DNA of 64,000 bases from Burkholderiales bacterium (GTDB lineage: Bacteria > Pseudomonadota > Gammaproteobacteria > Burkholderiales > Burkholderiaceae_C): the NCBI GenBank assembly GCA_947474755.1, contig CANJJE010000004.1, positions 62,001-126,000 on the forward strand, written 5' to 3'. Of the stretch, positions 31,371-33,653 are shown in pieces; position 1 is the first letter of the stretch, and the number at the start of each line of letters is the position of its first letter. The position numbers and the translations under genes were made by a program. Below the pieces are notes generated by a model that was not told the origin of the DNA, made no database searches, and saw only the letters and a program-made list of their open reading frames with translations.

Positions 31371-31502
31371 TCAGCTTGGCGTGTTGTTCTTCAGCGCCTT
31401 TTTTTCCTTCTCGGCGCGCACTTGCTGCGCTGTGAACTGATTCACCAACCAGATGCCGACAAAGATGAACCACAGCAGGATAAGAATGCTTTCAGTTTTC
31501 AT
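31371..31502 (-). CDS. 43-residue single-span membrane protein linked to pucC
   Basis: A 43-residue protein (MKTESILILLWFIFVGIWL..., about residues 5-22 hydrophobic) with a basic tail rich in Lys/Glu. A good Shine-Dalgarno (GAGG, 10 nt before ATG) supports the 31502 start; a longer frame from 31562 adds non-conserved residues. It lies 117 bp after pucC, same strand. It has no His that would ligate bacteriochlorophyll, so it is not an LH alpha or beta subunit. I do not recognise the family. Position suggests an LH2-related accessory, perhaps like the gamma-type single-span peptides known in some LH complexes, but this is only inference. Confidence 0.6.
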   Translation of the reverse strand: MKTESILILLWFIFVGIWLVNQFTAQQVRAEKEKKALKNNTPS

Positions 31503-31619: not shown

Positions 31620-32996
31620 TCAAACAGGGTTCGGCTCCCGCTTGCGGCCAATCAGGGGTGCCATCACGATCATCGCGGCCACCATCAGGCCAATCTCTAG
31701 GGCATATACCGAGACATAACCAGCGGTTGGGTTCGTGTAGGCCGCGACCACATCGCGAATGACGCCGCCGAGGGCGATGGCCACGCCCGCGCCCGTGGCC
31801 TGCACCGCGCCCCATGCGCCGAGCGCCAGGCCGCTCATGTTCTTCGGGGCGAGGTTCATCGTTGCAGTCAGCGTGCCATGGCTGAACAGGCCACCGCCGA
31901 AGCCGATCATCAGCACGCCAAGCATGAACAGCTGCTGCGAGTTGAAGGCGGCCGAAGCGATCACCGCGAGAAAGGCCGGCACGCCGACCATGGCGCCGAT
32001 GCTGGCCATGCGGAACGGGTCGAAGCCTCGGCTCAACACATTCGACGCGAGTGTGAATCCGGTCAACCCACCGACCGCCAGAGTTGCTGTGAGCATGGTG
32101 GTGGTGGACACGCTGAGCTTGAGGATTTCCCCTCCGAAAGGCTCCAGCAGCACGTCCTGCATGCTGAACGCCATGGTCCCCAACCCGATGGCCACCAGCC
32201 GGCGGATCGCGCCCTCGCCCTTGCTGAACAGTTCCCATGATTCGCGAAAACCACCCTGCGTGGCGGGCTTGCGGTTGCGCGTGCGGGGTTCCTGTTTCCA
32301 CAGCGCGATCACGTTGAGCACCATTGTCATCAGGGCCGCGCCCTGGATCACCTGGATCAGGCGCGCCGGGCTGAAATCCTTGAGCAAGGCGCCGAAGACG
32401 AGTGCGCTGACGATCATGCCGACCAGCAGCATCACGTACATCAGGCCAACGACCTTCGGTTGAGATTCCACGGGTGCGAGGTCGGTGGCGAGCGCCAGGC
32501 CCACCGTTTGCGTTGTATGCATGCCGGCGCCGACCAGCAGGAATGCGATCGCGGCGCCAAGTTGGCCGATCCATGCCGGCGCATTGCTCGATTGGCCGCC
32601 GCCTGACAACACCAGCAGCGCGAACGGCATGATCGCCAGGCCGCCGAATTGCACGAGGGTGCCCATCCAGATGTAGGGAACCCGGCGCCAGCCGAGCTCG
32701 GAGCGGTGGGTGTCGGATCGGAATCCGATCAACGCCCGGAACGGTGCGAATACCAGCGGAAGCGCCAGCATGATCGACACCAGCGATGCCGGGACCCTGA
32801 GTTCGACGATCATGACGCGGTTCAGCGTGCCGATCAGCAACACCAGCGCCATACCCACCGAGACCTGAAACAGAGACAGGCGCAGCAACCTCGACAGCGG
32901 CAAATCTGGCGTTGCCGCGTCGGAGAACGGCAGAAAGCGCGGGCCCAGCTCGGCCCACGCGGAAATCATCTTCTGGCGGAACTGCTTTACTTGCAC
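31620..32996 (-). CDS. pucC: PucC/LhaA-type LH-complex assembly protein (BCH transporter family)
   Basis: A 458-residue twelve-span membrane protein of the PucC/LhaA (BCH, major facilitator) family, needed for assembly of light-harvesting complexes, probably by handling bacteriochlorophyll or LH polypeptides. Features include RLLRLSLFQVSVGMALVLLIGTLNRVMIVEL, IGFRSDTHRSELGWRRVPYIWMGTL, PVESQPKVVGLMYVMLLVGM, MQDVLLEPFGGEIL and GGLFSHGTLTATMN. It is downstream of pucA, separated by a terminator-like hairpin. The start is GTG 32996 (MQVKQFRQK), ahead of the conserved region; ATG 32969 is an alternative. Neither has a strong Shine-Dalgarno. Confidence 0.93.
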   Translation of the reverse strand: MQVKQFRQKMISAWAELGPRFLPFSDAATPDLPLSRLLRLSLFQVSVGMALVLLIGTLNRVMIVELRVPASLVSIMLALPLVFAPFRALIGFRSDTHRSELGWRRVPYIWMGTLVQFGGLAIMPFALLVLSGGGQSSNAPAWIGQLGAAIAFLLVGAGMHTTQTVGLALATDLAPVESQPKVVGLMYVMLLVGMIVSALVFGALLKDFSPARLIQVIQGAALMTMVLNVIALWKQEPRTRNRKPATQGGFRESWELFSKGEGAIRRLVAIGLGTMAFSMQDVLLEPFGGEILKLSVSTTTMLTATLAVGGLTGFTLASNVLSRGFDPFRMASIGAMVGVPAFLAVIASAAFNSQQLFMLGVLMIGFGGGLFSHGTLTATMNLAPKNMSGLALGAWGAVQATGAGVAIALGGVIRDVVAAYTNPTAGYVSVYALEIGLMVAAMIVMAPLIGRKREPNPV

Positions 32997-33132: not shown

Positions 33133-33345
33133 TTACTTCGGTGCTTCAGCAGGCGCTGCTACAGGCGCTGCGATCGCGGGCGCGGGGGCTGCCCGGTCAT
33201 ACGACCCATTGAAGAAGGCCTTGATCCAAGGTGTGTTCGTCGTCAAGGCGAGGTGAACAGAGAACGACCCGACGGCAACGGCCACGAGGAAGATAGGAAT
33301 TCCCACCTTGGGGCTGACCACTGTCCACATTTTTCCGTAGATCAT
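33133..33345 (-). CDS. pucA: Light-harvesting complex 2 alpha subunit
   Basis: A 70-residue single-span polypeptide of the LH alpha family. The N-terminus (MIYGKMWTVVSPKVGIPIFLV) aligns without gaps with Rhodoblastus acidophilus LH2 alpha, and His31 is the B850 bacteriochlorophyll ligand. Past the helix, the aromatic pair usually Tyr44-Trp45 or Tyr44-Tyr45 is Phe44-Phe45 here, so hydrogen bonds to the C3-acetyl groups are lost. The C-terminus is extended by an Ala/Pro-rich tail of ~22 residues, as in Rubrivivax PucA. It has a Shine-Dalgarno AAGGAG 7 nt before ATG. It lies 18 bp after pucB. Confidence 0.93.
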   Translation of the reverse strand: MIYGKMWTVVSPKVGIPIFLVAVAVGSFSVHLALTTNTPWIKAFFNGSYDRAAPAPAIAAPVAAPAEAPK

Positions 33346-33363: not shown

Positions 33364-33513
33364 TCAGTGCAGCCAGGGTGAATAGATGTACGCCAGCAAA
33401 TGTGCCAGCGCCGCGATGATCCCGAAGATCTGCGTGCCCTGAATCAGATTGCGGTGAATTTCCTCTGATTCGGCCACCGTCAATCCGGTGATCCCAACTT
33501 TGTCGTCTGCCAT
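33364..33513 (-). CDS. pucB: Light-harvesting complex 2 beta subunit
   Basis: A 49-residue single-span LH beta polypeptide starting MADDKVGITGLTVAESEE. His38 (LAHLLAYIYSPWLH) is the B850 ligand and His20 (EEIHRN) the conserved N-terminal His. The segment GTRVF that in acidophilus supplies Arg20 to the B800 pigment is GTQIF here (Gln28), while the rest aligns end to end. The start ATG at 33513 is preceded by a strong Shine-Dalgarno (AAGGAG, 8 nt). First gene of the operon, ~100 nt downstream of two PpsR-like boxes. Confidence 0.93.
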   Translation of the reverse strand: MADDKVGITGLTVAESEEIHRNLIQGTQIFGIIAALAHLLAYIYSPWLH

Positions 33514-33609: not shown

Positions 33610-33627
33610 TGTAAATATGAATTAACA
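33610..33627 (-). promoter_or_regulatory. PpsR/CrtJ-like box, promoter-proximal
   Basis: The minus-strand sequence TGTTAATTCATATTTACA fits TGT-N12-ACA. It lies about 96 nt upstream of the pucB start, 8 bp from the second box. Confidence 0.7.
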
Positions 33628-33635
33628 CTACCACG

Positions 33636-33653
33636 TGTCAGGGCATGTTGACA
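33636..33653 (-). promoter_or_regulatory. PpsR/CrtJ-like box, distal
   Basis: The minus-strand sequence TGTCAACATGCCCTGACA matches the full consensus TGTC-N10-GACA of PpsR/CrtJ, the aerobic/light repressor of photosynthesis genes. Two boxes 8 bp apart is the arrangement bound cooperatively by CrtJ at bchC. Confidence 0.75.

Follow-up and report, generated by a model that had tools for sequence, protein, structure and literature searches.

A puc locus predicted to encode an LH3-like sole peripheral antenna in a Burkholderiales bacterium, with candidate allelic variation of antenna colour in its genus

The stretch of DNA analysed here, hereafter the window (64,000 nucleotides of a contig of the Burkholderiales bacterium assembly GCA_947474755.1), very probably encodes the sole peripheral antenna of a phototroph of the beta-proteobacterial type, an LH3-like complex that is made to the exclusion of LH2. 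The organism belongs to a mainly freshwater group of purple bacteria. By analogy with characterised complexes, the long-wave band of this antenna is expected, with high confidence, at about 803-826 nm and most likely near 819 nm.

The gene of the alpha subunit, pucA, lies on the minus strand (33133..33345) and is a complete frame, from the ATG at 33345 to the stop codon at 33133. Its translation, its profile match, and its alignments to solved chains identify the 70-aa product as an antenna alpha subunit of the LH2/LH3 type. It scores 35.2 bits against the Pfam profile LHC (PF00556, cut-off 23) and has the bacteriochlorophyll-ligating His31, which places it in the alpha family. The other key residues are Ser27 and the stretch W40-I41-K42-A43-F44-F45-N46-G47, and the C-terminal tail is rich in Ala and Pro. 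In phmmer searches, residues 3-53 pair with residues 3-53 of 1kzu (LH2) and 1ijd (LH3), both from R. acidophilus, where the absence of gaps rests on the equal aligned lengths. The alignments with 8z81, 7ze3, 9dwz, and 7pbw have no gap, and that with 7zdi has a single one, in the tail past residue 50. Translation and alignments (over residues 3-53) thus bear out the preliminary description of this DNA, which had placed the protein in the LH2-alpha frame through W40 with Phe44-Phe45. These two residues are not there by chance, since four species of the genus keep them even though position 43 can be Ala or Gly.

In the order of transcription, the operon starts with two TGT-N12-ACA boxes found by pattern match upstream of pucB (33636..33653 and 33610..33627, given without strand), which fit the PpsR/CrtJ consensus. 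They are followed by pucB (33364..33513, minus strand), which has a PF00556 match, encodes the 49-aa beta subunit, and lies just upstream of pucA. Downstream of pucA comes pucC (31620..32996, minus strand), the gene of a 458-aa LH2 assembly factor of the major facilitator type (PUCC, E 3.8e-155), and directly after it a frame for a conserved 43-aa single-helix protein (31371..31502, minus strand). At least one box occurs in 86 of 122 upstream regions, compared with a mean of 5.0 for the spacings N11 and N13. Within the 64-kb window the pattern was found 16 times against 7.8 expected, so that a single match elsewhere means little.

The genome of the window (95.6% complete) has four PF00556 matches, which correspond to one puf pair and one puc pair. 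The 15 genomes of the genus have exactly four matches (10 genomes), two (3), or zero (2), and none has more than four. Exactly four were also found in all 13 other genomes of the family that were tested, and in G408, a genome discussed below. Since the alpha of the sole puc pair has no donors at positions 44 and 45, no ordinary LH2 is encoded, barring gaps in incomplete assemblies. The role of LH3 as a low-light alternative beside LH2, a trait of R. acidophilus and not of R. antarcticus, does not apply to this genome with its one puc pair. The puf and reaction-centre genes are apart from puc, on another contig (C13), whose Pfam matches include reaction-centre proteins of the L and M types, a subunit of magnesium chelatase, and a subunit of a nitrogenase-like reductase of the chlorophyll pathway.

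The colour of the antenna can be predicted from the residues that bond the C3-acetyl groups of the bacteriochlorophylls. PucA and PucB would form an LH2-type ring in which alpha positions 41, 44, and 45 are all unable to make these hydrogen bonds. Judging from the solved relatives, the C3-acetyl groups of the tightly packed bacteriochlorophylls would no longer be held in the ring plane, the site energies would rise, and the long-wave band would move to about 803-826 nm. Energy would then pass to LH1 with less back-transfer, as reported for blue-shifted antennas (PMC8775250). Across nine solved complexes, two C3-acetyl bonds go with bands at ~850 nm, one with ~825 nm, and none with ~803 nm (PMC9618040). 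The window lacks the Tyr/Trp donors at positions 44 and 45, as expected of an LH3, and in its sequence this supports the earlier proposal of a band well under 850 nm. The LH3 of R. acidophilus 7050 (1ijd, Tyr41-Phe44-Leu45) shares with it an LH2-type alpha, Phe44, and the absence of Tyr/Trp at 45, but differs in having Leu45, in being made beside LH2, and in a residual bond from Tyr41, retained at ~820 nm (PMC9618040). The window has Ile41 instead, although Tyr41 is not shown to define every LH3. The range of 820-840 nm put forward in the preliminary description is therefore too red, as Ile41 removes the third donor, and we correct it to about 803-826 nm. In Rba. sphaeroides, the mutant Y44F alone absorbs at 838-839 nm with Tyr45 still bonding, and the double mutant Y44F/Y45L at 826 nm (PMC8775250); the former value does not apply to the window, because it was obtained with Tyr45 left in place. 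Ser27, which is kept in 121 of 128 alphas, the window included, bonds a different carbonyl in Rba. sphaeroides and is present in the double mutant at 826 nm (PMC9618040). The exact band remains loosely defined because complexes without donors range from 803 to 826 nm.

The lower end of this range is set by R. palustris PucD-LH2 (7ze3, Val41-Phe44-Met45), which is described as making no C3-acetyl bond and absorbs at 803 nm (PMC9618040). The window is equally without donors at 41, 44, and 45, and its ring band might, as in an LH4-like complex, fall to about 803 nm and merge with B800 into a single peak. We consider this unlikely: Y44F/Y45L of Rba. sphaeroides stays at 826 nm, the Phe-Phe alpha of R. 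antarcticus absorbs at 819 nm (PMC5374385), and Limnohabitans planktonicus has its 813 nm band separate from a 799 nm peak (PMC12654162). PucD-LH2 also differs from the window in Met45, in an extra ribbon-like gamma chain, and in being one among several puc pairs of its genome. It is still less probable that the bonds come from elsewhere, for instance from the Trp in the PWL motif of the beta chain, and keep the band near 830-850 nm: P. molischianum and Marichromatium purpuratum do bond the acetyl via a beta Trp (PMC9618040) and the window's PucB retains Trp at the matching PWL, but the PucD beta of R. palustris has the same ending (SPWLH) and makes no such bond (PMC9618040), and the window's alpha is nearest to the R. 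palustris/acidophilus/sphaeroides class (E 7e-12, against 0.2 for molischianum).

The LH3-like reading, with a band most likely near 819 nm, has its closest precedent in Rhodoferax antarcticus, which the preliminary description had named as blue-shifted; the precedent is real and closer than was thought. Strain ANT.BR absorbs at 819 nm and is described as having, like the window, Phe44-Phe45, a single puc operon, and no LH2 genes (Baker et al. 2017, PMC5374385). The trait of the window is thus not new in kind. Strain Fryx1 of the same species absorbs at 836 nm (PMC5374385). The two systems differ in the place of the operon: puc is among crt genes, inside the photosynthesis gene cluster, in R. 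antarcticus (3.8 Mb and a 0.2 Mb plasmid, chromosome of 59.1% G+C; PMC5374385), whereas the window has it beside alaS and on a contig other than that of puf. In our set, genome G408 (genus g121, 4.0 Mb) has Ile41-Phe44-Phe45, one puc pair and one puf pair, and its puc genes lie near pufL, flanked by a gene for a CrtD desaturase, which passes the NCBIfam cut-off, and one for a phytoene synthase. It fits the published description of R. antarcticus and, if it is that species, would tie Ile41-Phe44-Phe45 to 819 nm; R. antarcticus would then be of a different genus from the window. Against this identity, the 19.5-kb puc stretch of G408 has 52.4% G+C, compared with 59.1% in the published chromosome.

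Other systems resemble the window in part. Chain a of 8z81 is a solved alpha with A43-F44-F45, like the window, but with Tyr41. Limnohabitans planktonicus (799/813 nm) and Pseudohaliea rubra (804/821 nm) are LH3-like according to a review (PMC12654162), a likeness of bands in which spectra and not PucA residues are compared. A contig titled Limnohabitans (L053) has Val41-Phe44-Leu45 and a second one (L093) has, unlike it, Ile41-Tyr44-Leu45, so that the calibration at 813 nm is not tied to a sequence. As a separate observation on the beta subunit, PucB has Gln (in GTQ) where the aligned betas of R. palustris have Arg, the residue seen to bond B800 in the solved structures. This Gln recurs in 61 of the 62 betas read, out of 88, and the 800-nm band could therefore move as well.

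Alphas without donors are frequent among the relatives that we retrieved. We denote the residues at alpha positions 44/45 by two letters (FF, YY, FL, FV, YW, YL, YF). Tyr and Trp are absent from both positions in 111 of 128 distinct related loci, the remaining 17 having one or two, and this is a share of the retrieved set rather than a population frequency, since the contig scan was limited to the 80 best of 385 relatives found with a query centred on the window. More generally, similarity searches that started from the window's alpha, or from its relatives, supplied the locus sets, which are biased accordingly. Ile41 accompanies all five FF rows among the 128 loci. In the family, 24 of 399 genomes are PucA-positive, and the 23 alphas read (all but L028) divide into 10 without Tyr/Trp at 44/45 (FF 2, FL 7, FV 1) and 13 with at least one donor (YY 10, YW 2, YL 1). 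Genus g88 has a PucA match in 37 of 90 genomes, and among the 30 alphas read 29 are Val41/FL and one is YL. In genus g121, with a match in 11 of 89 genomes, eight alphas were read (YY 4, YF 1, FV 1, FL 1, FF 1) and the three weakest matches yielded none. On a tree of PucC, the presence or absence of donors changes at least 9 times, with 7 of these changes required by branches of good support, and 3 changes are needed for FF; all are counted relative to pucC and not to the species, because PucC itself recombines. The LH3-only condition, proposed in 2017 as unique if true in R. antarcticus (PMC5374385), thus looks common in the relatives retrieved. Several public records with puc loci of the Burkholderiales kind bear the name of Rickettsia typhi (L047) or, in three cases, of Bordetella parapertussis (L054, L074, L076), and these look like mislabelled environmental bins.

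Within the window's genus, 12 of 15 species have a PucA match, evenly divided between FF (the window, G202, G406, G407), YY (G103, G397, G276, G401), and FL (G339, G404, G405, G400). All eight loci of the FF and YY species show the same synteny, with puc flanked by alaS and by a gene for a hydroxyacid dehydrogenase (hadh), although contig ends cut off some outer neighbours; in the stretches taken, the FL loci are not at this place. Among the eight syntenic loci, five encode one and the same PucB, and the remaining three depart from it at one, one, and two residues. The FF and YY alphas differ beyond positions 44/45: identity between the window's alpha and those of the four YY species is 70-77%. 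Trees of alaS and of hadh did not give a resolved branching order for the FF and YY species. At synonymous sites, pS in the genus is 0.11 for pucB, 0.47 for pucA, and 0.48 for pucC (28 non-independent pairs), and the corresponding values in 661 other pairs, equally non-independent, are 0.23, 0.40, and 0.50. Synonymous change in pucB is thus exceptionally low next to the freely varying pucA and pucC, above all in the window's genus, and part of this conservation is a general constraint on pucB, given its low pS in the other pairs too.

One genome of the genus, G202 (locus L115), is a mosaic of an FF pucA and a YY-type pucC. Its flanks are near G406 (hadh 95.8%, alaS 94.1%, small frame 97.0%), and its pucA is FF, with 90.8% identity to the window and 86.0% to G406. 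Its pucC is of the YY type, 89.0% identical to that of G401 compared with 75.5% to the window and 74.4% to G406. The informative sites that join G202 to G406 versus G401 number 108 to 4 in alaS, 37 to 5 in hadh, and 10 to 156 in pucC. The strongest block begins within pucA, ends shortly after pucC, and scores above every one of 100 shuffles. A second quartet, which includes G407, gives a concordant result, its block continuing into alaS, and in two comparison quartets no block was significant (21 and 9 of 100 shuffles reached the observed value). On the PucC tree, G202 groups with G103 and G401 (support 99/95). From the site counts, the shuffled-block test, and the placement in the tree, recombination of pucC in G202 is clear at the sequence level. 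The informative sites in pucA are too few to indicate its origin (G406 1, window 3, G401 4), although, when the quartet includes two YY genomes, 21 pucA sites unite G202 with the window, versus 1 and 0 for the alternatives.

The small frame behind pucC is a second feature of these loci. Defined as a frame of 25-45 residues that contains a single hydrophobic stretch, has a basic tail, and starts no more than 260 bases behind pucC, it was called in 80 of 98 loci, or 79 once a false call is removed (L101, an inner piece of a longer frame). The other strand gave 0 calls, and 20 letter shuffles gave a mean of 0.6 and at most 2. The 80 calls represent 70 distinct genes and 66 proteins, of 26-43 residues, and 63 of the 70 genes have a ribosome-site-like stretch upstream, a count without a control. 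The ratio pN/pS is 0.21 in frame, compared with 0.88 and 2.35 in the shifted frames (77 non-independent pairs), a pattern that points to purifying selection on the protein. In the window's genome, a profile of this microprotein matches solely at 31502-31371. Across the 399 family genomes, apparently one and the same draw as in the PucA scan, it matches 18: 17 of the 24 PucA-positive genomes, the other seven giving no match, and, among the remaining 375, one weak stray inside a 586-residue frame. In all 17 the main match shares the strand of pucA and lies 1.5-1.7 kb downstream of it, with a second weak match elsewhere in G385. The matches at puc loci are partly by construction, since the profile was built from such loci, which does not hold for the near absence from the other 375 genomes. 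G408 also has the small frame. Searches of PDB, Pfam, and NCBIfam gave weak matches under every cut-off (best PDB E 0.096), and literature searches brought up nothing pertinent among the entries listed. We rejected an identity with the gamma chain of R. palustris type, an extended ribbon without helix that the cited text reports only in Rhodopseudomonas (PMC9618040). From its place, the protein may act together with PucC or with the ring, and we regard this so far undescribed microprotein as a new candidate part of a well-studied machine.

These observations suggest, tentatively and at somewhat less than even confidence, that antenna colour in the window's genus may be an exchangeable allele at one chromosomal locus. 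According to this proposal, pucA (YY or FF) and pucC would be recombined between species while pucB stays nearly fixed down to its synonymous sites, switches between ~850 and ~815 nm would occur without gene gain or loss, and the downstream microprotein would serve the antenna or a PucC assembly step. A 2025 review (PMC12654162) that gives Limnohabitans and Pseudohaliea spectra had already dented the uniqueness of LH3 without LH2, and the 2017 proposal for one Antarctic species would yield to an LH3-only condition that is common in the window's group. FF and YY species at one locus, with nearly identical PucB, offer a counterpart in nature to the classic Tyr-to-Phe mutants, and such a pair would make the ecological use of LH3 testable. 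Alpha positions 41, 44, and 45 are readable in lake metagenomes and should predict the colour of the antenna.
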